Source: a virus. From it: a stretch of DNA of 21,492 nt. Location: the IMG/VR virus record IMGVR_UViG_3300021197_001352, positions 1 to 21,492 of that record; one strand, given 5' to 3'. Within the stretch, counting starts at the first letter, position 1. The number at the start of each line of letters is the position of its first letter. Made by a program: the position numbers and the translations under genes. Below, one piece after another: positions 6,648 through 21,420 of this stretch. The notes under the pieces are model-generated. The model searched no databases, was not told the origin of the DNA, and was given only the letters and a program-made list of their open reading frames with translations.

Positions 6648-6656
6648 TATTTTTTG

Positions 6657-6664
6657 TATCTTTG
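6657..6664 (+). promoter_or_regulatory. Bacteroidota-type -7 box before the capsid genes
   Basis: TATCTTTG matches TAnnTTTG and is followed by CA. It lies in the only gap between portal and scaffold, 31 bases before the scaffold ATG. The predicted transcript start is about 6668, at the first base of ACAGGGA. It would give the scaffold, capsid and accessory genes their own high-level transcript. No clear -33 box is seen. Confidence 0.65.
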
Positions 6665-6676
6665 CAAACAGGGAAA

Positions 6677-6694
6677 TAATTAAAAAAAAGAAAA
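6677..6694 (+). repeat. Leader repeat, copy A (A-rich initiation region of the scaffold gene)
   Basis: TAATTAAAAAAAAGAAAA is identical to 10087-10104, and both copies end one base or less before an ATG. ACAGGGA precedes both copies (6668-6674 here). The A-rich tract takes the place of a Shine-Dalgarno site. Confidence 0.8.
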
Positions 6695-6695
6695 C

Positions 6696-7682
6696 ATGTC
6701 AAAAGAAGAATCAAAATTAGTTGATGAGGTTATAGATAACCCATCAGGAGAAGAAAAAATTGCAGAAGGTGAGTTTAACCCATTAGCATTTGTAGATGAT
6801 GTATACGGATCTGATACAAAAGACAGCTCAGAGGATACTGGAGATGTATCTAAAGAAGATGAAGATGGGTGGTCATGGGAAGAAGACCAAAAAGCAAAAG
6901 AGTCAGAAGAAGTTGTAGAAGAAGAGGAGGAGTATGATTGGGAGAATACTACCAATGAGTCCACTGAAGAATCTACAGAAGAAGAAAAATTAAATTGGGA
7001 AAAAGTTGGTAAAGAATTAGGTATAGAAATTAATTCTAAAGAAGATCTTGTTAATGCCATGAACTCTATACAAAAAGAGTCTAAGCCTGCTCAGGAAGAC
7101 AACCAAATATCTCAATTAAGAGGGTATCTTAAATTAAGCGATAGAGATTTAGTTGCTGAAGAGTTAAGACATGATGGTATTGAGGAGCACGAATTAGAAG
7201 AGTCTATTGATAAATTAGAAGACTCAGGAATGCTTAAGATGAAAGCTAAGAGCGTTAGGCGAGTGTTAAATCAAGCTATTGATCAACACAATGACAGGAC
7301 AAAAAAAGAAAGAGCTAATGCAGAAATTCAGAAAAAAGAATCTGTTGCAAAAGCAAAAGAAGGATTAAAAACTCAGATTAAAGAAATGAATGAGTTTATG
7401 GGAGGAAAAGTTACAAAGAAACAGAAGGAGGAAATATATCGTTTTGCTACAGGTGATATGATGAATGAAATATGGAAAGATCACGCCAATGTTGCGGATG
7501 TTGCTATGTTTATGTTGTATCGCGAGCAAATAGAGAAAATTCTTCGTTCTCAAGGATTGGCAGACGGCAAAGCCGCTATTATGGATAGTATAGTCTCCCC
7601 AAGCCTTAACACTGGAAAAAATAAATCTAACTTCAAAGTGGAGTCAGGTACGTTTGATCCAAAAGCGTTCATGGGCGAGTAG
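6696..7682 (+). CDS. Capsid scaffold-like protein
   Basis: The gene lies between portal and major capsid protein, the usual scaffold position. The 328-residue product has scaffold composition. The first about 110 residues are extremely acidic (runs of Glu and Asp such as EEVVEEEEEYDWEN), and the middle (about 115-275) is charged and helical. The end is a short basic and aromatic segment (KSNFKVESGTFDPKAFMGE) of the kind that contacts coat protein. No protease domain is visible, so self-cleavage is not indicated. Transcription likely starts at the promoter 31 bases upstream, and translation starts behind an A-rich leader. The stop is TAG. Scaffold function is inferred from position and composition. 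Confidence 0.75.
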   Translation: MSKEESKLVDEVIDNPSGEEKIAEGEFNPLAFVDDVYGSDTKDSSEDTGDVSKEDEDGWSWEEDQKAKESEEVVEEEEEYDWENTTNESTEESTEEEKLNWEKVGKELGIEINSKEDLVNAMNSIQKESKPAQEDNQISQLRGYLKLSDRDLVAEELRHDGIEEHELEESIDKLEDSGMLKMKAKSVRRVLNQAIDQHNDRTKKERANAEIQKKESVAKAKEGLKTQIKEMNEFMGGKVTKKQKEEIYRFATGDMMNEIWKDHANVADVAMFMLYREQIEKILRSQGLADGKAAIMDSIVSPSLNTGKNKSNFKVESGTFDPKAFMGE

Positions 7683-7769: not shown

Positions 7770-9281
7770 ATGGCAACAACAAGTACGGGTACGTATGGAA
7801 GAGGAACAACTGCTGCGAATGCACTTAACGCAAATTTGTTACAACATCCAGAAATTGCTAAAACTTTAATATCTCTTTACCCAAGATATTCTATGACATA
7901 TCTTCTTGAAAAAACTAGAAGACATGCTGCTGAAAAAGTTTTAGGAGACAGTTCTTACGAATGGAAAGTAATGAACAGACTAAGTAGAAAATGTTTAATT
8001 GATGTAGCTGGTACGCCTACTGTAGGTGACGGTTCTCCTGCGGCTGGTGAAGGCGCTGTAGCTGGAGATTTAATGGCAGGATTCAAATTTGAAAACACTT
8101 CAGGTGGAGGTGTTGAAGATTATTTTAATTTATATGATGTAGTTCGTTTCCCTTCTGGGGCAACTGGATTAGTTGTAGCTGGGCCTGCTTCAAACGCTTA
8201 TTCTATTGAGCCTATCACAGCTATCACTGCTGCTGACAATACTGTTGGAAATGTAGTTGGTAGAATTGGTTCTGCATTCCCTGCTGGGTCTTCAGGAGCT
8301 GATGTAGGTGAGAATCACGCTTATCCAGATACTTACAAGAATTGGATGACAATCAACAGAAAGAAATGTACAATCACTGGTAAAGATGCCACTGATGTTT
8401 CTTGGGTTGAAAACAATGGTCAAAAATTATGGTACTTCACTAAAGAGAATCATATGATGGACCAATTTATGTATGAGCAAGAGTTACAAAGATGGTACGG
8501 ACAAACATCTGTAGTTACTGCTGCAACTAATTACTCTGCAACTAATGTTGATATTATAGGTGATATTGCTGCTGGTGAATATGCTGATGGTACTGCAAGA
8601 GCTGCTGTGTCTACTACAGGCGGAGCATTTACAATTGGTGATGGTGTTTTAGCACAGATTGACGGTTCTAATCAAGCTACATATGCTGCTGGAACATTAA
8701 CTGAAGATATTATTACTGAGTTTATTGGTAAGATCTCTTTAAATGCACAAAATGCTGAAGGTAACGAATGGGTTGTTTTCACTGGTACTGAAGGGCGTAT
8801 TGCGTTCCACAGAGCTATGAAAGATTTAATCGTTGCTCCTTCTGGTGCGATGACTGGAGGTTCTATGAAAGATATCAAGGCTGGTTCTGATGTATCTTTA
8901 GGTGGAAACTTTACATCTTACCATGCATTAGGAAACAAGATCACTATCGCTTACTGTCCAGTATTTGATGATGCTCATGTTCACGGTGCTTCAGGTGGTA
9001 CTAATTCATTTGGTGATACTAGATTAAAAGAATCTATGAAGATGGTGTTTATGGATTTTGGTACAACTTCTAGCGTTGCTAACGTAGAGTTAATCACTAA
9101 AGGTGCTGCTGGAATTAATCGTTCATTAGTTAAGAAATATGTTGGAGGTATGGTAAACCCTTACGATACTAAAGGTATGTTAGCTGCTAATGGTGATGAC
9201 AGATTCCAATGTCACGCATTATCTGAGTCAGGAATTGTTGTTAGAAACCCACTTTCTTGTGGAGTTCTTTCTGCTGCCTAA
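7770..9281 (+). CDS. Major capsid protein (HK97-fold candidate)
   Basis: This is the main shell protein. Its 503 residues and its position after portal and scaffold match the major capsid protein of crAss-like and related Bacteroidota podoviruses. The N-terminal region (about 1-80) has the helical LQHPEIAKTLISLYPRYSMTYLLEKTRR and WKVMNRLSRK segments. The middle (about 85-300) is Gly/Ala/Thr-rich and may hold surface insertions. The C-terminal part has KYVGGMVNPYDTKGM and the end SESGIVVRNPLSCGVLSAA, a pattern I recall from crAss-like capsid proteins. No N-terminal delta domain or protease site is obvious, which agrees with the separate scaffold gene. A stable hairpin follows the stop. HK97 fold is established for tailed phages in general and is inferred here. 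Confidence 0.9.
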   Translation: MATTSTGTYGRGTTAANALNANLLQHPEIAKTLISLYPRYSMTYLLEKTRRHAAEKVLGDSSYEWKVMNRLSRKCLIDVAGTPTVGDGSPAAGEGAVAGDLMAGFKFENTSGGGVEDYFNLYDVVRFPSGATGLVVAGPASNAYSIEPITAITAADNTVGNVVGRIGSAFPAGSSGADVGENHAYPDTYKNWMTINRKKCTITGKDATDVSWVENNGQKLWYFTKENHMMDQFMYEQELQRWYGQTSVVTAATNYSATNVDIIGDIAAGEYADGTARAAVSTTGGAFTIGDGVLAQIDGSNQATYAAGTLTEDIITEFIGKISLNAQNAEGNEWVVFTGTEGRIAFHRAMKDLIVAPSGAMTGGSMKDIKAGSDVSLGGNFTSYHALGNKITIAYCPVFDDAHVHGASGGTNSFGDTRLKESMKMVFMDFGTTSSVANVELITKGAAGINRSLVKKYVGGMVNPYDTKGMLAANGDDRFQCHALSESGIVVRNPLSCGVLSAA

Positions 9282-9303
9282 TTCACAATATTAATTTGAT
9301 AGG

Positions 9304-9321
9304 GGGAGGCTTCGGCCTCCC
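9304..9321 (+). other. GC-rich UUCG hairpin after the capsid gene, without a U-tract
   Basis: GGGAGGC-TTCG-GCCTCCC is a perfect 7 bp stem with the very stable C(UUCG)G loop, 22 bases past the capsid stop. No T run follows; the sequence continues AATATCGCC. It is therefore more likely an mRNA-stabilising or processing hairpin than an efficient intrinsic terminator. Partial termination cannot be excluded. Confidence 0.75.
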
Positions 9322-9348
9322 AATATCGCCTAAAAAAAATATAAAAAA

Positions 9349-9801
9349 ATGGCAAATTATTTAGATTTATCAGGAAAGTCTTCTGAGCAAGGTCAAGGCA
9401 GACTTCCAAAATTAAGAGGTCAAATTGCTCCAACAAGCACATTAACATCAGATACGACATTATATGATTATAATAGTGGTACTACTTATTTTTGTGACGG
9501 TTCAAGCGCAATTGACATAACACTACCTACTGTAAAAGCAGGATTGAATTTTAAATTTATTGCAACAGATACAACTGCTGATATAGATATTATTCAAGCT
9601 TCCTCTACAGAAGATTTTATCGGATTCATATTAGATGGTGCTGGCACAAAAGATTCTGCTGTAAGTGGTGATACAAAAATTATTTTTGATACAAGTGGTG
9701 GTTCATCTGCTGGTGACTGGGTATGCTTATCTTGTGATGGAACAAATTGGTATGTTCAAGGAGCATGTAGTTCTGCTGCTGACTTAGTTTTTGGATCGTA
9801 A
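9349..9801 (+). CDS. Capsid accessory protein (decoration or head-fibre type)
   Basis: The 150-residue product has alternating beta-strand patterns (TLYDYNSGTTYFCDG, AIDITLPTVKAGLNFKFIATDTT, GDWVCLSCDGTNWYVQGAC). Small all-beta proteins with this 'ITLP..k.GL.fkFI.tDT' and 'DGTNWYV.G' style are common just behind capsid genes in marine phages. They are presumed to decorate the shell or begin head fibres. The first 25 residues are polar and probably flexible (SGKSSEQGQGRLPKLRG). The gene is isolated between two GC-rich hairpins and starts behind an A-rich leader (AAAAAAATGG) with no Shine-Dalgarno site. The role is inferred from position and fold pattern. Confidence 0.75.
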   Translation: MANYLDLSGKSSEQGQGRLPKLRGQIAPTSTLTSDTTLYDYNSGTTYFCDGSSAIDITLPTVKAGLNFKFIATDTTADIDIIQASSTEDFIGFILDGAGTKDSAVSGDTKIIFDTSGGSSAGDWVCLSCDGTNWYVQGACSSAADLVFGS

Positions 9802-9817
9802 TTAATTATTGGAAGAC

Positions 9818-9837
9818 GGAGGGGCTTAGTCCCCTCC
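9818..9837 (+). other. GC-rich hairpin after the accessory gene, without a U-tract
   Basis: GGAGGGG at 9818-9824 pairs perfectly with CCCCTCC at 9831-9837 around a 6-base loop (CTTAGT). It is followed by AAATTCC rather than T residues. It mirrors the hairpin at 9304-9321, so the accessory gene has a stable stem on each side. It also lies just before the promoter-like box of the next gene. Confidence 0.75.
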
Positions 9838-9845
9838 AAATTCCT

Positions 9846-9853
9846 TATATTTG
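9846..9853 (+). promoter_or_regulatory. Promoter-like -7 box abutting an ATG
   Basis: TATATTTG matches TAnnTTTG and is followed by CAAG and then ATG at 9858. With the usual spacing, transcription would begin at or beside the start codon and give a leaderless mRNA. No clear -33 element is seen, and the stem of the upstream hairpin overlaps where it would be. Confidence 0.45.
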
Positions 9854-9857
9854 CAAG

Positions 9858-10076
9858 ATGAAAACAAGATTAGTAGTAAGAGACGGTAAGGTTGTTGAAA
9901 TCAAGTTAGATGAATTGCAAGAGAGTAAAAGTAACATATTAATAAAAGAAGGATCAAAACTTAATTGGGGAGATAAAAACTATCAAGAAACTAGAATCTC
10001 TACTAATGAAAAAGGGCAAAGAAGAATATTTAAAGAGACTACAAAAAAGTCAAAATATTATATAAACAAAAAATAA
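9858..10076 (+). CDS. Hypothetical protein (72 aa)
   Basis: I do not recognise this gene. The 72-residue product begins with a strand-turn-strand pattern (MKTRLVVRDGKVVEIKL), has a mixed middle and ends very basic (KGQRRIFKETTKKSKYYINKK). There is no hydrophobic span. The start is the only ATG close behind the -7-like box, and there is no A-rich leader, unlike its neighbours. It lies between the capsid accessory gene and the start of the neck genes. The following gene has a duplicated leader that begins at this gene's stop (TAACAGGGA). Confidence 0.6.
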   Translation: MKTRLVVRDGKVVEIKLDELQESKSNILIKEGSKLNWGDKNYQETRISTNEKGQRRIFKETTKKSKYYINKK

Positions 10077-10086
10077 CAGGGAGTAT

Positions 10087-10104
10087 TAATTAAAAAAAAG
10101 AAAA
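10087..10104 (+). repeat. Leader repeat, copy B (A-rich initiation region of the 254-residue gene)
   Basis: TAATTAAAAAAAAGAAAA is identical to 6677-6694, with ACAGGGA at 10076-10082 upstream, as in copy A. Here no promoter box precedes ACAGGGA, so a shared translational role is more likely than a shared transcription start. Confidence 0.8.
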
Positions 10105-10869
10105 ATGGCACACCTAATTTATGTAAAATCAAAACAACCGAAGAAGTTCAGCTACTGTAAGTTCGGTACTTACACAAAAAAAAATGGAAAGAAATCTGTA
10201 TTATTAAACCCAGACGATCTTCCTGTAGATGGATGGGAGATGTACGATCCATTAACTACATTAGATATTGACAATCAGTATGACAAAAGAATTTACGATT
10301 TTCTTTTAGAACATCCCTTTATGACAAGCGGTAATACATTTGAAATGATTGACACTAAAGCTAATATAGAAAAGCAGGCTGCTGACATACTAGAGTCTGC
10401 TGAGGCTGTTCAGATTGCTACTGCAATAAAAGATAATGAGCTTGCCGACTTACGAAGATTGTTTGGTATTGGAGAGGATTTTGAAGATAAAATTGTTAAG
10501 GCTAAGCTAATACAAATGGCTGGAAGGTCTCCTGCAAGATTTTTAGAAATTTATAATGATGCAGATAAAAGTTATAAAGTATTTTTAAAAAATGCATTAG
10601 CTAAAAAAGTTATTCAGAAAGTAAACGATGTATGGAAGCACGGTAATTATACATTAGGTATTTCTGATGGACACGCTATTCAGTGGCTGAAAGAAAATCC
10701 AGACATCTATGCTACAATGAAGAATCAGGTTAGAAATGGGATTAAGAAAACTGAAGAAGTTAAAACTAATACATCTGACATGGTAGCTAGTGCTGGTATT
10801 CAAGATTTAGAAAGAAAGATAGAATCTGATAATAAAGGAAAATGGTTTGATAGATCTAAAAAGAAATAG
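10105..10869 (+). CDS. Hypothetical virion-block protein (254 aa)
   Basis: The 254-residue product has a short beta-type N-terminus (HLIYVKSKQPKKFSYCKFGTYTK). A segment with YDKRIYDFLLEHPFMTSGNTFEMID (about 59-83) follows. A long helical region (about 84-180) carries repeated Ala/Leu/Asp patterns such as AADILESAEAVQIATAIKDNELADLRRLFGIG and KAKLIQMAGRSPARFLEIYND. The end is basic (NKGKWFDRSKKK). I have an impression of this layout in other Bacteroidota phage structural blocks, without a known function. The gene lies between capsid and connector genes, begins behind the duplicated leader and is followed after three bases by the adaptor-like gene. A virion, internal or neck role is inferred from position only. 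Confidence 0.65.
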   Translation: MAHLIYVKSKQPKKFSYCKFGTYTKKNGKKSVLLNPDDLPVDGWEMYDPLTTLDIDNQYDKRIYDFLLEHPFMTSGNTFEMIDTKANIEKQAADILESAEAVQIATAIKDNELADLRRLFGIGEDFEDKIVKAKLIQMAGRSPARFLEIYNDADKSYKVFLKNALAKKVIQKVNDVWKHGNYTLGISDGHAIQWLKENPDIYATMKNQVRNGIKKTEEVKTNTSDMVASAGIQDLERKIESDNKGKWFDRSKKK

Positions 10870-10872
10870 TAA

Positions 10873-11676
10873 ATGAATTTAGCTGAGGCATATGATATGA
10901 TGGACTTACTCTTAGATGAGTCAAATGCTCCGTATTTTACAAATGAAGAAAAAGATAAATTCTTAAATCTAGCTATATCTGATTTTATTAATGGGCATTA
11001 TCAAAAGATGACGGCTGATGAAGATTCTAGAAGAGCATTGTCTGGCTGTATTGACTGGAATGAATTTAGTATTTCTAAAGCAGTAATAATTGCTGGTACT
11101 GCTATTTATAGTAATAGTTATCCAGCATTATCAGAGGTGTATGATGAGACAACAGTATCAGACATTCCAGCTTCAGGAATATTTAACGCTACTAACGTTA
11201 AAGGTTATTTTGCATATGGAAATCAATATGTATTACCAAAGCAACATTTATATGTATTGTCTATAGGGTTAGGCTTTTACAATAAAGAAGAGGTTATAAA
11301 TCCTAGTACTGGAGAAGTCTATTCAGGGGTTACAGAAGATGATATAATTTTTGGCCCTACTGTTAATGCAGAAAACAAATCTACTAGAGAATATTATGAA
11401 AATGCTCGCTCTAATGATCCTTTTAATAAAGCTAGTAAAGAAGCTCCAGCCTGGTCTTATATAGAAAATAGAATTGTAATCAACGGTGGTGGTAGCTCTA
11501 TAAGACAGATAAACATGCAAACCGTATTATTACCTACAGTAGACGAGGCATTTTCTGCAAGTACTTATGATAGTTCAACAGCTCCAGCACGACTAACATT
11601 TGCAGAGCATTATCAAAAACAAATAATACAAAGCGCTATTATTAAAATGTCGTCACATATAGATCTTCATAATTAA
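10873..11676 (+). CDS. Head-tail adaptor / ring protein candidate
   Basis: The 267-residue product starts with NLAEAYDMMDLLLDESNAPYFTNEEKDKFLNLAISDFINGHYQKM, a helix-turn-helix-like entry. It resembles the N-terminus of podoviral connector proteins of the P22 gp4 / T7 gp11 type, where a bundle packs under the portal. The middle (about 90-215) is beta-rich and probably projects outward. The end returns to helix (FAEHYQKQIIQSAIIKMSSHI), as adaptors do. It follows the 254-residue gene after three bases. A structured gap with a terminator and promoter-like boxes follows. The adaptor role is inferred from position and architecture; it could equally be one of the neck rings described in crAss-like virions. 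Confidence 0.6.
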   Translation: MNLAEAYDMMDLLLDESNAPYFTNEEKDKFLNLAISDFINGHYQKMTADEDSRRALSGCIDWNEFSISKAVIIAGTAIYSNSYPALSEVYDETTVSDIPASGIFNATNVKGYFAYGNQYVLPKQHLYVLSIGLGFYNKEEVINPSTGEVYSGVTEDDIIFGPTVNAENKSTREYYENARSNDPFNKASKEAPAWSYIENRIVINGGGSSIRQINMQTVLLPTVDEAFSASTYDSSTAPARLTFAEHYQKQIIQSAIIKMSSHIDLHN

Positions 11677-11699
11677 GATATATAATATTGAAATATAAA

Positions 11700-11739
11700 A
11701 CGCATTACACTGTAAAAGGATTTCTTTTGCTCCCTGCGT
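11700..11739 (+). other. Nested RNA hairpin in the neck-gene gap
   Basis: ACGCA (11700-11704) pairs with TGCGT (11735-11739), and inside it AAAAG (11714-11718) pairs with CTTTT (11724-11728). The stems are short, and there is no U-tract right after. It sits directly before the terminator hairpin at 11741-11781. Confidence 0.4.
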
Positions 11740-11740
11740 C

Positions 11741-11781
11741 AAAAATAGGTTGACACTAGAAATAGTTGATGCCTATTTTTG
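11741..11781 (+). terminator. Candidate rho-independent terminator
   Basis: AAAAATAGG (11741-11749) pairs perfectly with CCTATTTTT (11772-11780). The 22-base loop contains a small ACTA-GAAA-TAGT hairpin. The 3' arm itself supplies the T run, so the element could work on either strand. It separates the 10873-11676 gene from the next neck gene. Confidence 0.55.
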
Positions 11782-11808
11782 TTTAATGGATAATTTTGAC
11801 TAATTTTG
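11774..11808 (+). promoter_or_regulatory. Three TAnnTTTG boxes before the 363-residue neck gene
   Basis: TATTTTTG (11774-11781), TAATTTTG (11791-11798) and TAATTTTG (11801-11808) all fit the Bacteroidota -7 element. The last two are a tandem repeat with a 10-base period. The nearest one predicts a transcript start near 11812, 18 bases before the ATG at 11830. A TTG at 11750-11752 lies 21 bases before the first box and could serve as its -33 element. Confidence 0.5.
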
Positions 11809-11829
11809 TAAACATCTAAATACTCTATA

Positions 11830-12921
11830 ATGATAACTTTAAACGAAATAGCTTATAACATTAAAAACATTGCATATGGAGGATCTACTTCTACAGAAAA
11901 TAGTATTAGTTTAAAGCAAATAAAACATTGGATACATTATCATAGAGCAAAACTTATTGCAGATAACATTGATAAAGGTATTACAAACAATCAAGCGCTA
12001 TATCAAAGCATGAGACTTTCTGCTAGAAACTCAACATCTAGCTCTATTAAAAACTTTTATGATACATGGGATGCTAAAGATATAGATGCGTCTTTATCAG
12101 CCCCTAATCTTTTAGATGCGAATGGTCTTCCTATACCTTTTTTGGCAGATATGCCTAAAAATATAGCAGGTGATAGATTAAATGGAGAATGGTTAGTGCA
12201 TTCAAGTGTAACAACAGGAGAAAGTGGCTGGGCTGATGGTCAACAAAGAAGTTTTTATGGAGAAGAGATATCTTCCTCACAACTTAGAGGTGATTTTAGA
12301 AATTTTGGATCACATAACTTTTGGACACCAAGGCCGCTCCAATTAAAAGATAATCAGGGAATTGTCTCGGTATCTGTTGAAAGATATGTTTATTTTCCTG
12401 ATGATCCTGGGACACCTGATGATAATGAGCAGATAGGTTCTTATGCAAAAAAATCAATAAGATTGTACAGGAAAGAATACAATAGTTTTGATCACTTTAA
12501 TAAATTTACAGATAACAATACACCATATTACACGCAAGAAACAGCAAAAATAGACAGAGAGAGTAATGGCAATGAAAATTATATAAGCCTTAGACAACTA
12601 CAGGTATCTCCTAATTATCATGGAGGATTAAGTACACCAGCTAATAAAAAAGTATTTTGGAAATATAGAGGAGGTGCAACTATGATACTGGAAAATCCTA
12701 AAGAGATTGATATGATGTATGGCTTTTGGTTCGAAACTGAAACGAAATGGGATGACAACACAACCCCTTATCCTATTCCTATGGAGTGGGTGAGTGATTT
12801 AGTCCAAAGAGTTATACAGGTGGAAATGCAAGCTGAATTAAAAACTACTCCAGATATAATAACAGATGGTTTAGACGATAACTTAAAACGACAAAGCGGT
12901 GGGGCACAAGTACAAAGATAA
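11830..12921 (+). CDS. Neck / ring protein candidate (363 aa)
   Basis: The 363-residue product opens with ITLNEIAYNIKNIAYGG, then LKQIKHWIHYHRAKLIADNIDKG. This is the N-terminal helical pattern I associate with crAss-like ring or tail-connector proteins. A largely beta middle (about 110-280) follows, with KKVFWKYRGGATMILENP. The C-terminal helix region (PIPMEWVSDLVQRVIQVEMQAELKTTPDIITDGLDDN, about 315-352) completes a podoviral connector layout. The gene likely has its own promoter in the upstream gap. Its last 23 bases overlap the next gene, which starts at GTG. The exact place in the neck cannot be read from sequence. Confidence 0.65.
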   Translation: MITLNEIAYNIKNIAYGGSTSTENSISLKQIKHWIHYHRAKLIADNIDKGITNNQALYQSMRLSARNSTSSSIKNFYDTWDAKDIDASLSAPNLLDANGLPIPFLADMPKNIAGDRLNGEWLVHSSVTTGESGWADGQQRSFYGEEISSSQLRGDFRNFGSHNFWTPRPLQLKDNQGIVSVSVERYVYFPDDPGTPDDNEQIGSYAKKSIRLYRKEYNSFDHFNKFTDNNTPYYTQETAKIDRESNGNENYISLRQLQVSPNYHGGLSTPANKKVFWKYRGGATMILENPKEIDMMYGFWFETETKWDDNTTPYPIPMEWVSDLVQRVIQVEMQAELKTTPDIITDGLDDNLKRQSGGAQVQR

Positions 12922-13291
12922 GTATACATCAATAAAAGATATTTACAAGCTTGTTAAATTAATGATGACAAGAGATATAGATTATTCTTTATATTATAAT
13001 ATTATTAAAAAGTATTTTGAAATACTAATAAGAGATGTAGTAGATAGAGATCGTAGGGTTTATTTACCAAACTCAATGGGATATGTTTATCTTGATGAAA
13101 GACCTCATAAAAGAGCCTTTCATGTTAGAGTTGATAATGAGGCGACTAAAAAAGAAGGTAAAACAATAACAAAACAAATACCTATTCTAGATGATTTTTA
13201 CAAAAAGATTGTTTGGGTGGGACCAGAAACATATAAATATTGTAAGTTTATGCCTCTAAGGTATTTCAGAAATAAAATAAATAAAAATTAA
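12899..13291 (+). CDS. Small conserved-type virion-block protein; distant HU/IHF-like candidate
   Basis: The frame is open from a TAA at 12884-12886, and the first usable start is GTG at 12899, which reads into the previous gene for 23 bases. An ATG at 12961 is possible but would remove the helix YKDKYTSIKDIYKLVKL. The 130-residue product is basic (end RYFRNKINKN). It has a helical half (about 8-50) and then RRVYLPNSMGYVYLDERPHKRAF, a strand-Gly-strand pattern after helices. That layout loosely recalls HU/IHF proteins, and IHF-like genes have been reported in the virion block of crAss-like phages. The resemblance is weak and the HU motif proper is not visible. A structural connector role is the alternative. 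Confidence 0.6.
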   Translation: MGHKYKDKYTSIKDIYKLVKLMMTRDIDYSLYYNIIKKYFEILIRDVVDRDRRVYLPNSMGYVYLDERPHKRAFHVRVDNEATKKEGKTITKQIPILDDFYKKIVWVGPETYKYCKFMPLRYFRNKINKN

Positions 13292-13294
13292 AAA

Positions 13295-13762
13295 ATGGCA
13301 ACAACTGTAAACGCATCTACACTTACTGTAAAAATAACAGAAACTCTATCTTTAGGTACTGACGCTTCTGGAACAGCAGATAATATATCATTTGCACAAG
13401 AAAACTCCCACATTATATCAACGGCTATTTTAAATGCATCAAAAAGAATAATTGAGCTTGAGAGTACTGCACTAACAGAAATAGTTACTTTCCATGCTAG
13501 TTTAAACGCTGGAGGTCAATTTAAAAGAGGAGATGTTAAATACATTAGAATAACTAATCTTGATGATTCAGCTGTTCTTAAAGTGGGGTTAATAGGGGAT
13601 AGTAGTGGGGCTTTCCAGTCAGTGGCAGCAAACACATCTATTATATTTACAGGTACTGAGTTAGAAGTAAACGCTACATTTAGTTCTTTTGCTAATGCAG
13701 ATTCAATCAAAGTAATAGGAGTAGCACAACAACAGGTAGAGGTTTTTGTAGCAACTACATAA
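13295..13762 (+). CDS. Small beta-rich virion protein (155 aa)
   Basis: The 155-residue Thr/Ser/Ala-rich product shows regular strand patterns: STLTVKITETLSL at the start, then FHASLNAGGQFKRGDVKYIRITNLDDSAVLKVGLI in the middle. SSFANADSIKVIGVAQQQVEVFVATT forms the end. The 'G.FKRGDVKYIRITNLD' stretch is a type I recall from small structural proteins in marine phages. No signal peptide or membrane span is present. The start is ATG behind AAAAAATGG, three bases after the previous stop. It lies between two neck genes, so it is probably a minor tail or neck component. Function beyond that is not readable. Confidence 0.65.
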   Translation: MATTVNASTLTVKITETLSLGTDASGTADNISFAQENSHIISTAILNASKRIIELESTALTEIVTFHASLNAGGQFKRGDVKYIRITNLDDSAVLKVGLIGDSSGAFQSVAANTSIIFTGTELEVNATFSSFANADSIKVIGVAQQQVEVFVATT

Positions 13763-13772
13763 AAAATATATT

Positions 13773-15230
13773 ATGCATGTAAACATAGATAGAGTTTTTA
13801 CAACTGTAGCTAGAAATTTAGGACTAGGAGACTTTTCTAATCAGATAAATAACTGGATAGAGTGGGCTTATGAGGCTGAAAAACTTATTGGCAGTATTAG
13901 TACGTTTGTACAAAAAGAAGCTGTGTACAATGCAGATGGAGCTAAAGCTACAGGAACAATAACATTTACAGATGTACCTGTATCTGGAGATTCTATTACA
14001 TTAAATGGTGTTAAATTATATTTTAGAAACTCTGCAGATCTTGGTCAAGCTAAATCGCCTAACGAAATAGAAATAGGGCAAAATTTTGTAACAACTTTAG
14101 ATAATGCAACAGCTCAATATGGCTTAATACAAAGTCTAAAAGGAGGAATAGGAGGCGGTGGCACCACAGGAACATATACTAATTCAGCAATATATAGCTA
14201 TCCAGAAGCTTTAAATGTTGCTGATTATTCTATTAGTTTATCTACAGGAGATGATATGATTACTGATGGTGATTTTTCTAGTTCAAGTGCTTGGTCTGTA
14301 GGAACTAATTGGACGATTGGAAGTGGGGTTGCTACGCATGCTTCTGGAACTTCTGGCTATTTACGACAAAATGGTTTAACATTTGTAGAGGGAGAGACGT
14401 ATTCAATCACATTTGATATTTCATCTTGGACTGGAGGGTCTTTACTGTTAGGAAATCATTTACCTGACACCACTGGTGGTAATGATGATAATTTAACATT
14501 AACAACTGGAGCTACTACTGGAGACACTATTACAAGATATTGGAAACAAGGTCCAACAAACACAAATCAATTAAGCCTATGGGGAAGTACAGTTTTTGAT
14601 GGTACTATAGACAATATTGTAGTTAAAAAAGTTAATAGTGAAGATTTAACTATAACTTCAAAAGAAATAGGTAATAAAGGAAATGAATATACATTAGCTT
14701 CAGATAATGCAAATGCTAAAGTTAGTGCATTAAGTTTAACTGGAGGTAAAAATCTATACAGGAATCAGCAATTAAGATTGCCAGACGATAATGTTAAAAT
14801 GCTGGCTGTTAGAGATAATAATAATTATGAACTAAGAAAAACATCGTCTGTACATACTGGTAAATTAGGAGACGAAGCATTAAGATATTATGTGCAAGGC
14901 AATAGACTTAATATTGCTAATACAGGATCTACAGAGATGACAATAGTTTATTTAGCATATCCTACAGATTTAAGAGGATGGCCAATGATAAAGGAGGGTC
15001 ATGAAACAGCAGTTGCTCAATATATAATGTGGCAAATGAAATTAATAGAATTCTATAATGGTGAAATAGCTCAATATATAGTAAAAGAACTTGAAAAAAG
15101 ATGGTACTTCTTATGTGGTAAAACTAGAGGTGATGATGGCATGCCAACATCTGAAGAGTTAAAACAAATAGGTAATATATGGAACACTATGCTGCCTATT
15201 AAAAATAATAGAGGTCTTATAGATTTATAA
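13773..15230 (+). CDS. Neck / tail ring protein with a doubly nested beta-domain insertion
   Basis: This 485-residue protein appears to have three layers. The outer scaffold is residues 1-57 (helical, VNIDRVFTTVARNLGLGDFSNQI) plus about 328-485. The latter ends with a pattern typical of podoviral ring proteins (VYLAYPTDLRGWPMIKEGHETAVAQYIMW and then KELEKRWYFLCG). Inserted into it is a beta domain, residues about 58-157 and 288-327, beginning GTITFTDVPVSGDSITLNGVKLYF. It resumes with EDLTITSKEIGNKGNEYTLAS and ends SALSLTGG. Inserted into that domain is a carbohydrate-binding-module-like jelly roll, about 161-287 (MITDGDFSSSSAWSVGTNW to DGTIDNIVVKKV). The inner layer could bind host-surface glycans. 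The stump gene follows after one base. The ring role is inferred; the nesting is read directly. Confidence 0.7.
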   Translation: MHVNIDRVFTTVARNLGLGDFSNQINNWIEWAYEAEKLIGSISTFVQKEAVYNADGAKATGTITFTDVPVSGDSITLNGVKLYFRNSADLGQAKSPNEIEIGQNFVTTLDNATAQYGLIQSLKGGIGGGGTTGTYTNSAIYSYPEALNVADYSISLSTGDDMITDGDFSSSSAWSVGTNWTIGSGVATHASGTSGYLRQNGLTFVEGETYSITFDISSWTGGSLLLGNHLPDTTGGNDDNLTLTTGATTGDTITRYWKQGPTNTNQLSLWGSTVFDGTIDNIVVKKVNSEDLTITSKEIGNKGNEYTLASDNANAKVSALSLTGGKNLYRNQQLRLPDDNVKMLAVRDNNNYELRKTSSVHTGKLGDEALRYYVQGNRLNIANTGSTEMTIVYLAYPTDLRGWPMIKEGHETAVAQYIMWQMKLIEFYNGEIAQYIVKELEKRWYFLCGKTRGDDGMPTSEELKQIGNIWNTMLPIKNNRGLIDL

Positions 15231-15231
15231 A

Positions 15232-18200
15232 ATGGCAGAAGAAAAAAAGAATAAACCATCATCATCACAGGGAGGTCAACAGCCTCAAAAAGCAAACTAT
15301 ACAGTACCACAAGGATTTACTCACGGTATGGTTAGTGATCCTGATCCTAGGTTTCAATTAGAGGGAAGTTATAGTGATGCTTTAAATATTAGATTGACTA
15401 ACGATAAGGGTGATAGCTTTACTGTTGAAAACATAGAGGGCAATAGCCAGTTTATTGATTTAGGTGAGCTTCAAAAACAGCTTAACACACAAGACAAAGG
15501 TATATTAGGTAAAACAACAACTGGGAATTCTACTGTATTCTCTGAGATATACTGGGACCCAACTAATCATGATGTTAATGGAGAGGAGGTTGGAAATAAT
15601 TATCCTGCCGCAGGAGCGTATCCTTTTACAGATTTAGGGGCAGGATATGGAGGAGGGCCTTATATAGATTTAAGTAATAGAGCAAGTATAGTTGGCTATA
15701 CATCCTATGCTGATACTATATTTTTAATTATAGTTGCTAGATTTGAATGGGCTAATGATGACGGCAATATGGTTCAAGAGGTTGCAAATAGAACGATTTT
15801 TCTTTCTATTATATTTAATGACGAATTAGAAGTGACTGAAGTAATTGATCATGCTGTTTGCTATAGCAACGAAGGAGGAAATTATCCTGATTTAAATATG
15901 GATATAGATAATCAGTGTAGAGTTGAGCATATGGTTGAAAATAGTTGTATATCTAGAGTTTACTGGACAGATAATAAAAATCAACTAAGAACAATTAATT
16001 TAGGGGCAGGAGGGAAAAACGTCTTAAGTAAAGAAGAATTAGACATTACACCTTTAATGTCACCATCTCAACCAACATTAAAATCAACTACACACGGATC
16101 CTTACCTGTAGGTGTATACCAATATTCATTTAAATATGTTTCTGCTAATGGAGGTGAAACAACATTCTCTCCTTTAAGTAATTTATATCATGCTTCAGAT
16201 CAATCATTTAGCTCAACACTAACTTATGGTGGAGGGCCTCCTGGTAAAATAGGGGTGCAAGGATTTACTATAACTGTAGCTGACTTAGATCAAGACTTTA
16301 AATTTGTAGAGCTTTATGCTTTAATGTATGAGCAGCAAAACTTACCCCCTAGAGTCAGTCTAGTTGCTAAAAAAGGAATTGAAGGAAGGTCTTCTGTAGA
16401 TTTTTCACATACAACATGGTTTAATCAAATAGAGGGTGGTTTAGAGGATGTTTTAATAGAATCTAACACGTGGGACGTTTGCAAAGATATTGCAATTAAA
16501 GATAATATTTTATTTGCAGCAAATCTTAAGTCTAAAAAGAATTGGATATCAGAAAAAGAATGGAACGTTAAGGTTGCTAGACATAGAATTTTTGATGGCG
16601 AAGGAATCCTAACAACAAATGACTCTGCTATAAATCATTATAAAGACGGATCATTAATACCTCATACTGGTATGCAGGACAGAAATGGATATGATGTTAA
16701 GCATGGAAGATTACTACAACCATCAGAACATGAAGAATGTGCATTTGACGGTACAATTAACACACCAATGTGGACTACTTTATTAGAAAATCAAAGACAT
16801 TCTTCAACCTCCGCATCTTCAAATAGTGAAACAAAAACCAGAACAGGTAGAATTAAACAAAGATTAGAATACAGATACTTATCCGATTTAATGACACCAG
16901 GAGGGGAGTCTTTTAATTATGGAGATAATACATCTGGAGGCTGTAGGGTTACATTTGGAGTTAAAGAAAGGGCTGCTGATCAAACACAGAACACAAGTAC
17001 ATCTCCATATATTTCAGCAACAATACCTGGAGAAGAGATGCAAACAGATTTTGCTGGTTCTATAGCATATAATCCAAATGGTCAACCAGAAACTAAATTT
17101 AAAACATCAATGTCTTTAGGTGGTTCTATGGATCCTCATGCTGCTGGAGATAAAAGAGGATATCAAAGAGGTGATGTTTATAGATTTGGAGTTCAGACAT
17201 ATGATTTAACAGGTGCTCCTGGAAATGTTTTATGGATAGGAGATATACAGACACCAGAACAACATGATGTGTTAAGAATGATTGATGTAAATCAAAGTGA
17301 CTACTCGCCAGTAAGGCCAACTGTAACTAGCGTACCTAGCTCCTATAGCAGTCTAATAGATACGAAAAATATAGTAAGACATAAAAACATAATGGACTAT
17401 AGATTGTCTTATGTTTATGGGCACAATATACCTAAAGTAGATGTAGAATGGTTTAGTGCTAGAATAGGAGAAAGTACTCAAAATTTAGACGCTTATATAA
17501 GACACGATGGAACACAAGATAGTAACCTTCCTAATAATGGGGCGAGTTATAGAACGCCAACAGATCAAGGGTTAAGAAAAGCAGTTCCTGACTATTTACA
17601 CACAGACACTCATGATGACACTCATTATTTAATGGATTTATATGTTAATTTTGAATTTATTATACCTAGAGATGTTGCTTCTAAAATATCTGGATTTAGA
17701 GTTGTTAGGGCGGAAAGAAAAGAAGATGATAGAAGGGTGGTTCAACAAGGTCTGTTAAACCAGACTATGCAGTACGGTACAGCTGACGGAGATTTAGAAG
17801 TTGGTTACGATACTAATAAATTTTCAGCAGCTGACAACGCTTCTTTTGGAGACGAACCTGTGTTTGTAAATGCTTTTAATAAACAAGACCCAACAAAAGT
17901 AGAGCAGCCAGAATTTAATACATATCTTAATGGATATTTAGGGTTAGCAGAAAATTCTAACTTAGCATACTATAATCACTTATCAACAGATGGAGTTTTA
18001 ACATCAGGAAATATTACTGGTCCAATAGGTAGTTGGCCAGAAACCGAGGATTCAAAAAGACACCAAACAGGAGGAAATGGACCTGGTTCTGGTCATGGGT
18101 ATTGGGGAGACCCTGGATCTGGAGGTGGTCCTACATTATCACATTATGCAGGACCTGGAGCCTATGGTAAACACAGAAGACATTCTTCATATTTTGGAAC

Positions 18201-21200
18201 GTACCCTAAATATTATAGCGGTTATGCTGATGGAAAACAAAGCGAATGGGGTAATAATCATATAAGCAGTAGTATATATACATTAGATTCTCCAGACAGT
18301 GCTTTTGGTATTAGACCATATCAATATAGAGAAGGAGACTTTTTAAGAATAGATAGCTCTTTAAAGCTGACTGATAAAGATAGATATACAGACAGTCCGC
18401 AGACATGGGGTACAGGTAAATCATTTAAATTTTACAGTCACTGTAGAAATAATGCTAATTTTGCGTCTTTAGATCCCCATGGAACAGGTACAAGAGCATC
18501 TCAACTAATTTGGGAACCATTATCATTTAATAAAACAGACATAGATTCAATTTCGTTTTGCACAAAAAGACATATAGACGAAGATTATAGTGTTTTAATT
18601 GGTAAATACTATTGTTATGATCCTTATTTTGGTATTGGTATGGAAATTGATGGTGGTATGTTTGCTGCTATGGGATATGTTGGGTCTGGAGGTATTAGGC
18701 CTAAATGTGATTTTGGGTGGTCTTTACCTCTTACTGCTGCAAAAGAAATAGGAGATGGGGAGATTGTATCATCTTCTTTTTTCCAAAAATCAAAAAGGGT
18801 AGATGATGGTCAAGTTTACGGATTCTCAAATAATACTTTAGGGTATTATAAATCAGTATGGGAAACGAATAATTCTACTCATGGAGGTTTTTCTGCTTTT
18901 GGAGCAGTAACACTTGGGACTAAATCTATTGCCGCAATAAGAGACTACTCAACAGCAACAGGAGGTAATGATGCTACTACTTGGAATACAGATAATGAAT
19001 CTAATGCGGATGATTTTACATATGATACTGTGTCTACAATGCAAATGGGACTAAGGACAATTTTATTAGAAGTAGATAATTATGCGGCTACAGCAAAAAG
19101 AACTGGAGATTCTACTGGTGAAGGGTCTTACTTTAACAACAATATAATTAATAGGCCTGGTCATAGATATCATTCGTGGTTTGCTCCTGTAAATTTAAGT
19201 GCTATATATGAAGGCGGTAGTTGGTTAACATATTATTTAACTGGATCTGGAGGTGGATCATATTCTCATCAACCATCTAGTACCAATAATTTTAATTCAT
19301 ACACTGAAGTTATACATAGTAGTGCTTTATTGACTAATTATAATGGTAATTATAGAACATCAATAGATGTAACTAAAGATAGTGTATTGTATAAATATGG
19401 AAGCTATAGAAGATCACTTATTCCTTTTAAATATTTATGCTCAATAGTTAGGCGTGTTGTACCATATGGTGGTTACGGAAAAGAAGCTATTGAATCAACA
19501 AGATATATTCCTTGTGGAAACTTTCATGCTGTAGATGATAGAGGATATGGTGGCTCAACAGACCCCACTCAACCAATAGCTCATGTAAGTCAAGTCTTTG
19601 GAGGAGATACATTCGTAAACCTGTACTCTCACCAAAAAACATCATCCCCATATATGAAGAAATCTGCTTCAAGATGGCAAGTGTTTCCTGTAGAGTCTTA
19701 TGTTAATACAGATATGAGAAGTGGACTTACATTAAATAGTGGGGACACCGAAATAGGTAAAGATATAAATCAACCTCCTTTTAGTAATAGTTGGTTATAT
19801 AATCCTGTATTTTCTCAAGAGAATAATATTAAGTCAGGATTAATGATTGATGAAAATGTAACTTGTGAAGCTTTAGACCTACCTTATGAAATCGCTTACT
19901 CTAATACAAAAATATCTGGAGATCCAGAGGATGCGTTTAGACAATTTCCTATTAATCAATTTCACGACATGGAGGCTAAATACGGTGAGATTAATAGAAT
20001 AGTAAACTTTAAGAACGAGATATATGTATTGCAAGACAAAGGATTTGCTAAGCTTTTGGTAAACCCTATTTCTATGCTTAAAGATGAAACAGGAAATTCC
20101 TTATATACAGGGACAGGAGAAACTGTTGAAAACCATATATACATATCTACTAAACACGGAACAACACATAGATTTAGTGTTGCTGCTAGTGAGCATGCTT
20201 TATATTTTGCAGATAGTAATTATGGTAGATTGTTTAAATACGATACAGAAAAATTAGTATCTTTAGGAGATTCTTTTGGACAAAGAAACTATCTTAGAGA
20301 AATAATGAAAGAGTGGAAAAGTGTAGCTACAACTGACGATGCTGGTGTAATGAGGAAAGATGTTAAAGGCGATCTAGATAATATCAAAAAGAATGGAAGA
20401 AATTATGTTGGTGATAATCCTTTAAAATTTGTAGGAATTACATCTATATTTGATCATGAAAATAAAGAATTATTAGTAACATTTCATAATAGTAAATTTT
20501 TAACTGGATATGATAGAAATCATTTTGCTAACCCTTATAGTCATCACAGTATGGGGGCAACCGTAAATGGTCAGCAAATGGGTATATCGGAAACCCTTGT
20601 ATTTAATGAAGGTATAAATGCCTTTACTTCAAGATATAGTGTAGCACCCCCTTCTTGGATTGCTGGGGGGTCTGGATCATTCTTAGTTACTCCAGAAAAT
20701 GAAATAGCTGTTAGATCTATAATGAATATAAGGTCAGACTCTACGGCTTATGATAATTTGCCTTACAATATATATGGGTCTTATGATAGTCATTATTACA
20801 AACAATATAGATCAAATCCATTAAGTTTATGGCTATGGAATAAACATAAAGACGGTCTTAAAACTAATTTCTTTGGTAAGATGGATGATGCCCGTAGATA
20901 TGTTGAGGATACTTCAAACTTTGCTTTAGTTTCGCCTATAGATGGTACTGTAAACAGAAGTGTAGTAACAGTTTACGAAGGAAGTAAGCCTTATGCTGAA
21001 GAAAGTTATATTGAAAAAGTTATTAGTGAAATGCCTCAATTATCTAAAGTATACGATAATGTAAAAATACCTATAGTTAGCGATAATGAATTTTCATCAT
21101 TAGAATTTAATTCCGAAAACAGCTCCCACAAAACAAATATAAACTATAGGTGGAATTTTGAAGACACTCACCATGGCTGGTTATGGGATGCTGGAGGAAG

Positions 21201-21420
21201 TAATTATGTAGAGCCAATTATTAATTCTGTTACATCAACAAATGAATCTACAGTAATTGTTTCAGGTATTGTGCATCCAACTGACCCAGACGATGGTAAA
21301 TACTTTTTCTTTACAGTTCCTGAATGGGATTCTTTAGCTGGAAATACATCTTGGAGTAATAATATATTTAATGTAAAACAATATAGAGATGGGATTTTAA
21401 TATGGCAAGGAGATGTGTAA
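15232..21420 (+). CDS. Giant tail stump / muzzle-type protein (2062 aa)
   Basis: The 2062-residue protein is the largest in the window and last in the virion block. That is the position of the stump or muzzle protein that closes the short tail in crAss-like phages. After a polar start (1-25), residues 26-75 hold a characteristic GFTHGMVSDPDPRFQLEGSYSDALNIR and IEGN pattern. The central part is beta-rich with a Gly/His-rich stretch (about 946-988, including GHGYWGDPGSGGG). The C-terminal third has INQFHDMEAKYGEINRIVNFKNEIYVLQDKG (about 1573-1603) and YFADSNYGRLFKYD, which look like beta-propeller blades and are typical of such proteins. It has no signal peptide or membrane span. It starts one base after the neck gene stop, in TTATAAAATGG. 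The identification is good; the exact oligomeric role is inferred. Confidence 0.8.
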   Translation: MAEEKKNKPSSSQGGQQPQKANYTVPQGFTHGMVSDPDPRFQLEGSYSDALNIRLTNDKGDSFTVENIEGNSQFIDLGELQKQLNTQDKGILGKTTTGNSTVFSEIYWDPTNHDVNGEEVGNNYPAAGAYPFTDLGAGYGGGPYIDLSNRASIVGYTSYADTIFLIIVARFEWANDDGNMVQEVANRTIFLSIIFNDELEVTEVIDHAVCYSNEGGNYPDLNMDIDNQCRVEHMVENSCISRVYWTDNKNQLRTINLGAGGKNVLSKEELDITPLMSPSQPTLKSTTHGSLPVGVYQYSFKYVSANGGETTFSPLSNLYHASDQSFSSTLTYGGGPPGKIGVQGFTITVADLDQDFKFVELYALMYEQQNLPPRVSLVAKKGIEGRSSVDFSHTTWFNQIEGGLEDVLIESNTWDVCKDIAIKDNILFAANLKSKKNWISEKEWNVKVARHRIFDGEGILTTNDSAINHYKDGSLIPHTGMQDRNGYDVKHGRLLQPSEHEECAFDGTINTPMWTTLLENQRHSSTSASSNSETKTRTGRIKQRLEYRYLSDLMTPGGESFNYGDNTSGGCRVTFGVKERAADQTQNTSTSPYISATIPGEEMQTDFAGSIAYNPNGQPETKFKTSMSLGGSMDPHAAGDKRGYQRGDVYRFGVQTYDLTGAPGNVLWIGDIQTPEQHDVLRMIDVNQSDYSPVRPTVTSVPSSYSSLIDTKNIVRHKNIMDYRLSYVYGHNIPKVDVEWFSARIGESTQNLDAYIRHDGTQDSNLPNNGASYRTPTDQGLRKAVPDYLHTDTHDDTHYLMDLYVNFEFIIPRDVASKISGFRVVRAERKEDDRRVVQQGLLNQTMQYGTADGDLEVGYDTNKFSAADNASFGDEPVFVNAFNKQDPTKVEQPEFNTYLNGYLGLAENSNLAYYNHLSTDGVLTSGNITGPIGSWPETEDSKRHQTGGNGPGSGHGYWGDPGSGGGPTLSHYAGPGAYGKHRRHSSYFGTYPKYYSGYADGKQSEWGNNHISSSIYTLDSPDSAFGIRPYQYREGDFLRIDSSLKLTDKDRYTDSPQTWGTGKSFKFYSHCRNNANFASLDPHGTGTRASQLIWEPLSFNKTDIDSISFCTKRHIDEDYSVLIGKYYCYDPYFGIGMEIDGGMFAAMGYVGSGGIRPKCDFGWSLPLTAAKEIGDGEIVSSSFFQKSKRVDDGQVYGFSNNTLGYYKSVWETNNSTHGGFSAFGAVTLGTKSIAAIRDYSTATGGNDATTWNTDNESNADDFTYDTVSTMQMGLRTILLEVDNYAATAKRTGDSTGEGSYFNNNIINRPGHRYHSWFAPVNLSAIYEGGSWLTYYLTGSGGGSYSHQPSSTNNFNSYTEVIHSSALLTNYNGNYRTSIDVTKDSVLYKYGSYRRSLIPFKYLCSIVRRVVPYGGYGKEAIESTRYIPCGNFHAVDDRGYGGSTDPTQPIAHVSQVFGGDTFVNLYSHQKTSSPYMKKSASRWQVFPVESYVNTDMRSGLTLNSGDTEIGKDINQPPFSNSWLYNPVFSQENNIKSGLMIDENVTCEALDLPYEIAYSNTKISGDPEDAFRQFPINQFHDMEAKYGEINRIVNFKNEIYVLQDKGFAKLLVNPISMLKDETGNSLYTGTGETVENHIYISTKHGTTHRFSVAASEHALYFADSNYGRLFKYDTEKLVSLGDSFGQRNYLREIMKEWKSVATTDDAGVMRKDVKGDLDNIKKNGRNYVGDNPLKFVGITSIFDHENKELLVTFHNSKFLTGYDRNHFANPYSHHSMGATVNGQQMGISETLVFNEGINAFTSRYSVAPPSWIAGGSGSFLVTPENEIAVRSIMNIRSDSTAYDNLPYNIYGSYDSHYYKQYRSNPLSLWLWNKHKDGLKTNFFGKMDDARRYVEDTSNFALVSPIDGTVNRSVVTVYEGSKPYAEESYIEKVISEMPQLSKVYDNVKIPIVSDNEFSSLEFNSENSSHKTNINYRWNFEDTHHGWLWDAGGSNYVEPIINSVTSTNESTVIVSGIVHPTDPDDGKYFFFTVPEWDSLAGNTSWSNNIFNVKQYRDGILIWQGDV

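Follow-up and report, generated by a model that had tools for sequence, protein, structure and literature searches.

A 485-residue ORF in the stretch of viral DNA analysed here (21,492 nucleotides, IMG/VR virus record IMGVR_UViG_3300021197_001352, henceforth the window) is ring protein 1 (R1) of a crass-like podovirus (Table 1). Sequence profile analysis recovered a significant match to the Pfam family CrAss_Ring_1 (PF24228; 77.1 bits against a cut-off of 27, E=1.9e-21), which covers residues 342-477, and a phmmer search recovered gp43 of PhiCrAss001 (PDB 7qog_B; E=7.8e-4). The top Foldseek matches of the R1 model were to the same protein (7qoi/7qog; E=5.2e-5, with the C-terminal half of the model being of low confidence), by which the protein is predicted to possess the three conserved helices and the ring beta-sandwich of the R1 fold. 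Directly downstream lies the gene for the muzzle protein, reproducing the order of PhiCrAss001, in which gp43 (ring protein 1) is followed by gp44 (muzzle) (PMC10172136), and this neighbor fixes the ORF as R1. Pfam searches also identified in the window a major capsid protein (Crass_capsid) and a ring protein 2 (R2; CrAss_Ring_2). In PhiCrAss001 R1 is the portal-side neck ring, and together with R2 it makes the docking surface for the fibre hubs (PMC10172136). The hosts of crass-like phages are, as far as known, Bacteroidota (PMC10136315).

Two neighbors of R1 are of note in their own right. The R2 protein (11830-12921), which scores just over the CrAss_Ring_2 cut-off (27.4 versus 27), has 363 aa against 225 aa in PhiCrAss001 gp40 and may hold an insertion of its own. 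Directly upstream of R1, at the place taken by the HU/IHF-like gp42 in PhiCrAss001, is a gene for a 155-aa protein (13295-13762), for which no family match was recovered in Pfam or PHROG.

Table 1. Features of the R1 locus, in coordinates of the window
Feature	Position	Strand	Evidence
R1 ring protein (neck ring nearest portal), 485 aa	13773..15230	+	Pfam, phmmer, Foldseek, muzzle neighbor
R1 core, N-terminal part, residues 1-59 (two helices, first strand)	13773..13949	+	alignment to bare R1 proteins
Level-1 beta domain, first half, residues 60-157	13950..14243	+	missing from bare R1; joined to second half in L008-type R1
Level-2 inner module, predicted CBM-type jelly roll, residues 158-290	14244..14642	+	cleanly missing in L008; separate model; Foldseek
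Level-1 beta domain, second half, residues 291-334, LTITSKEIGNKGNEYTLAS...LTGGK	14643..14774	+	alignment of empty-slot relatives
R1 core, C-terminal part, residues 335-485 (rest of ring beta-sandwich, three helices)	14775..15227	+	Pfam, gp43 alignment
Segment recently exchanged with L003 lineage (nearly whole knob), 772 bp	13940..14711	+	identity contrast, log-likelihood gain
Muzzle (tail-tip) protein	15232..21420	+	PHROG 28748 virion structural protein, E=4.2e-54

PhiCrAss001 gp43 resembles the window's R1 in its CrAss_Ring_1 region, its helices, its ring beta-sandwich and its place before the muzzle gene, but it has 236 aa and is devoid of either insertion. Annotated R1 genes of known crass-like phages encode 213-236 aa, and unlike the 485 aa of the window the versions of cr116_1, cr111_1 and cr126_1 have only 213-233 aa as annotated; at the sensitivity used, no level-1 insertion was found in known GenBank crass-like phages. 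A scan of viral contigs, started with the window R1 protein and continued with a profile, gathered relatives that fall into three length classes. The bare R1 proteins (27 full-length homologues of ~199-243 aa) are gp43-like, with residue ~59 joined directly to residue ~335. In a further 31 full-length proteins (~354-383 aa) the beta domain, amounting to roughly 130-158 aa, is added without the inner module. The third class, comprising seven proteins of ~485-515 aa including that of the window, contains a further 130-150 aa inside the beta domain; as the relatives were collected with short peptide patterns, these 7 of 38 do not give an unbiased frequency.

The architecture is laid bare by contig L008, which is colinear with the window (DNA identity of 91.4% over window positions 7774-14227 and of 91.1% over 14649-18235) and in which the 421 bp at 14228-14648 of the window are replaced by 28 bp, a net difference of 393 bp by which exactly the inner module is missing. 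Since only the inner module is absent from L008, residues 60-157 and 291-334 constitute one domain that is split by residues 158-290. This beta domain is in turn inserted in the R1 ring protein, as seen from the junction of residues ~59 and ~335 in the 27 bare homologues and gp43, a point missed in the original prediction. That prediction, made prior to any database search, had described a 485-residue neck protein with two beta halves enclosing a jelly-roll module; the neck assignment is corroborated by the CrAss_Ring_1 match and by 7qoi/7qog, and the two halves, the inner module and the two-level nest were recovered with small shifts of their boundaries (to ~60-157, ~291-334 and ~158-290). 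It had also raised the question of whether the insert is variable among homologous neck proteins, and alignment yielded 31 without and seven with slot content; neither of the outcomes that it had named as contrary, a single continuous domain or a segment common to all relatives, was encountered. A tree inferred from the core columns alone places the rows bearing the beta domain on one side of a well-supported branch and scatters those bearing the module among them, with 5 changes by parsimony, at least 2 of which are forced by well-supported branches.

Two trivial explanations of the nest can be dismissed on these data. The long strands 150-163 and 277-296, which connect both domains in the model, might suggest that residues 58-327 form one continuous composite domain split only in appearance; however, L008 and 30 other relatives have the beta domain without the module, which is moreover predicted to fold alone, and these natural empty sites rule this out, leaving it next to no probability. 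The derivation of the window from a metagenome would allow for an assembly or chimera artefact, but L002 (54.8 kb) and L003, which are independent contigs, have the same module in the same slot, and L004-L007 have other ones there; on account of these independent contigs an artefact is ruled out, its likelihood being vanishingly small. The full-length R1 model, which places helices at residues 5-16 and 25-39 in the N-terminal part of the core, is weak (pLDDT 66, pTM 0.52, mostly <60 in the C-terminal half), and hence the relative placing of the domains in it cannot be relied on. Foldseek matches to Vip3, Cry and enteropeptidase were not taken as homology, as they are alignments of >250 columns to this low-confidence model.

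The content of the slot differs considerably between relatives. The window, L002 and L003 share one common module (71-97% identity), and that of L004 is a distant relative of the window's (35%), which scores over the Pfam cut-offs for both CBM_4_9 (30.2 versus 25.9) and DUF642 (36.9 versus 27). The slot module of L007 can be aligned over only the first ~60 residues and has a sub-threshold match to CBM_4_9, while those of L005 and L006 are barely alignable to the window's. A search of 22 records with a profile of the module matched six, namely the window, L002, L003, L004, L007 and L010; the R1 slot of L010 is empty, and the match sits in its muzzle. In that muzzle protein (L183) the match lies near the C-terminus (E=1.8e-6), apparently inside another beta domain. 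Judging by these alignments, the R1 site is a slot for differing modules rather than the site of a single insertion.

When modelled alone on 49 aligned relatives, the inner module was predicted to adopt a nine-strand beta-sandwich (pLDDT 87, pTM 0.81), and Foldseek matched it best to CBM16 (E=4.1e-6, TM-score about 0.62), followed by a hyaluronan-binding module (E=1.3e-5) and a porphyran-binding CBM (E=1.8e-5), with further matches to CBM4 and CBM29. The inner jelly roll of the carbohydrate-binding type that had been proposed is thus supported as a predicted fold, and on this model the window's module has the jelly-roll topology expected of a CBM. Eph receptor ligand-binding domains, which bind proteins, are also among the matches. 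At the sequence level the window's module has no match to any Pfam family, CBM_4_9 and the other CBM families included, and its CBM assignment accordingly derives from its fold and from the sibling module in the same slot of L004, and not from its own sequence. The structurally closest CBMs (CBM16, CBM4 and porphyran-binding modules; 2zew/2zex, 1gui and 8xmz) share the jelly roll with Foldseek E-values of 4e-6 to 2.5e-4 and TM-scores of 0.5-0.65, but are only about 14-17% identical to it. PDB profile searches by sequence with the module recovered nothing credible, and its PHROG match is to PHROG 30593, a family of unknown function. Its relatives conserve two stretches: one, of the type NGxFxxDxxWTKGTGWxIGSGVA, close to the beginning of the module, and another, FxGxIDNxxVK, at its end.

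Such relatives occur widely across viral contigs, and where the protein carrying them can be named it is a tail fibre, a J-type or a minor tail protein. Other carriers include the protein L109, which has four laminin-G lectin domains, and a crass-muzzle-like protein (L025) with a sub-threshold match to PF25729. Sequence relatives also constitute C-terminal modules of the tail fibre J proteins of the Rhodobacter phages RC1, RS1 and RcapMu (33% identity over 123 aa, E=3e-7, for RC1), although these lie near the fibre C-terminus and are not nested in a neck ring. A stand-alone version of 141 aa is encoded by Edwardsiella phage vB_EpM_ZHS (ZHS_9; L100:3450-3875), between the minor capsid and head-fibre genes.

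The level-1 domain has a comparably broad distribution, in this case across tail tube (Phage_tube_2), tail sheath (DUF3383) and large tail proteins (PHROG 376); for instance, the DUF3383/PHROG-205 tail sheath protein L245 contains a domain related to it in sequence. Going by such relatives it is a promiscuous phage domain. No Pfam model names it at its cut-off, the only matches being sub-threshold ones to tail-sheath and DUF2460 models (PF17481, the phage tail sheath beta-sandwich, at 11.5-12.4 bits against a cut-off of 31.4), and no solved relative was found. A PHROG 376 tail protein (L243:815-4549) has two tandem domains of this type. A 307-aa protein (L234:2004-2924), whose N-terminal part belongs to PHROG 394 (tail protein), has a level-1 relative near its middle, and its layout seems to resemble a neck ring protein, possibly representing an independent insertion of the same domain.

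There is an alternative view of the knob, by which we mean the level-1 domain and the module that it encloses. The level-1 domain in particular, but also the knob as a whole, might be a collar or hub docking element for virion proteins such as the fibre hubs or the capsid vertex, with the inner module acting as a protein-binding jelly roll. R1 and R2 do form the interface at which fibre hubs dock in PhiCrAss001 (PMC10172136), all 38 full-length clade members examined keep the level-1 domain, which is also present in tube, sheath and large tail proteins, and protein-binding Eph receptor domains are among the jelly rolls of the inner module's shape. However, a part needed for docking should be kept, and yet the inner module is missing in 31 of the 38 and is swapped for dissimilar modules, while its relatives reside mostly in tail-fibre and minor tail proteins wherever the carrier can be named. 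We therefore consider docking to be an unlikely function for the knob.

Comparison with L003 brought to light a recent exchange. The window and L003 are 98.8% identical inside the segment 13940-14711 and 76.1% identical outside it, and the log-likelihood gain for this segment is 128.8, as against at most 6.5 in 20 permutations. The converse pattern is observed between L003 and L005, which are 88% identical outside the exchanged segment and 59% inside it. The R1 gene of L003 (IMGVR_UViG_3300006810_000700, 6001-7497) is itself a recombinant, being L005-like outside and window-like over the knob. Synonymous divergence (dS) between the window and L003 is 0.014 for the first half of the beta domain and 0.022 for the module, but reaches 0.65 and 1.18 for the two parts of the core. 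The contrasts in identity and dS indicate that almost all of the level-1 domain was exchanged together with the module inside it, showing that the knob moved recently between the window and L003 lineages. Further, the inner module changes faster than the ring, with window-L002 dN/dS being about 0.37 in the module versus about 0.04 in the C-terminal core.

The elevated dN/dS of the module, along with its occurrence in 7 of the 38 relatives and the widely varying content of the slot, might alternatively be taken as signs of near-neutral decoration, in which a promiscuous virion domain comes and goes by drift in a loop that tolerates it, with no host-linked function. Against this, the dN/dS of the module is still <1 and its reading frame is kept, the slot modules look like CBM folds and not like random sequence, and the knob has been exchanged between lineages recently as one unit; such drift is accordingly quite improbable as an explanation.

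The R1 of the window, which has a CBM-type module variably present among close relatives, is reminiscent of certain other phage neck and ring proteins. In the lactococcal 936 phages CBMs occur in the Dit, the major tail protein and the neck passage structure (NPS), and GFP fusions of two of these bind host cells (Hayes et al. 2019, PMC6669499). As in the evolved Dits and NPS of these phages, a ring or neck protein of the virion has gained a CBM-type module that is variably present and exchanged. However, the 936 proteins are Dit and NPS fibre proteins from other phage and host groups, whereas the protein in the window is a CrAss_Ring_1 protein, and, unlike the 936 CBMs, its module sits within an inserted domain that is itself lodged in the portal-proximal ring. 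In Klebsiella phage KP32 the ring protein TTPA gp31, which acts on capsule, has at residues 57-99 a beta element for which a lectin-like nature has been proposed (PMC5440376); here too a neck ring protein of a podovirus has gained a beta element, close to the point of the level-1 insertion in the window, but this element is a small beta-sheet without a separate jelly-roll module or an exchange slot, and the enzymatic activity claimed for TTPA has no counterpart suggested for the window's R1. Domain shuffling has also been documented for neck passage proteins (PMC10684548). In light of these precedents (PMC6669499, PMC5440376), the description of a glycan-binding module on a phage neck as unusual in the original prediction holds only in part; no paper on insertions in crass ring proteins was found in the open-access literature searched, within which a CBM-type module in the crass ring family and in a swap slot appears to be new.

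Taken together, these observations favor the interpretation, to which we assign a probability of roughly 0.6, that the window encodes an 'evolved' R1 ring bearing on the neck an outward, exchangeable glycan-binding slot that gives a reversible grip. To the ring identity, the nest with its three natural states, the predicted jelly-roll fold of the module, the varied slot modules and the recent exchange, this interpretation adds, as the part that we infer, outward display, glycan binding and a role in adsorption. At level 1, a hairpin in the ring beta-sandwich of the dodecameric R1 ring would have received the beta domain, and a hairpin tip of this domain would then have served as the slot at which CBM-type jelly rolls were inserted, lost and exchanged (level 2). 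Up to twelve knobs per virion would thereby be arrayed around the neck, beside the collar at which the tail-fibre hubs of PhiCrAss001 dock. The one ground for placing them on the outside is that of space: twelve knobs of ~30 kDa, with a volume of >400,000 cubic angstroms as estimated from general protein density, would hardly fit in the ring channel and should therefore project outward. There the knobs might bind surface glycans such as capsule, O-antigen or exopolysaccharide, weakly and multivalently, providing, at a distance from the tail tip as the original prediction had suggested, a first and reversible grip after which the fibres and the muzzle could engage. Speaking against the glycan-binding part are the lack of a Pfam CBM match for the window's module and the fact that jelly rolls of the same shape also bind proteins. 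The absence of the slot module from 31 of 38 relatives implies that it is dispensable.

More tentatively, and with rather less than an even chance of being correct, the slot on the portal-proximal neck ring could be a dedicated exchange site, formed by a mobile domain whose CBM-type modules move as cassettes, which would make the neck a second, independently evolving determinant of the surface glycans gripped by environmental crass-like phages. The locus offers a nested domain insertion of which every intermediate state still exists in nature, in an otherwise strongly conserved ring, and natural pairs ready for comparison, namely the window versus L008 and L003 versus L005. Should the knob prove to bind glycans, adsorption of crass-like phages would involve an element other than the fibres and the muzzle, and the neck ring ought then to be considered when hosts are predicted for these viruses, most of which are uncultured.
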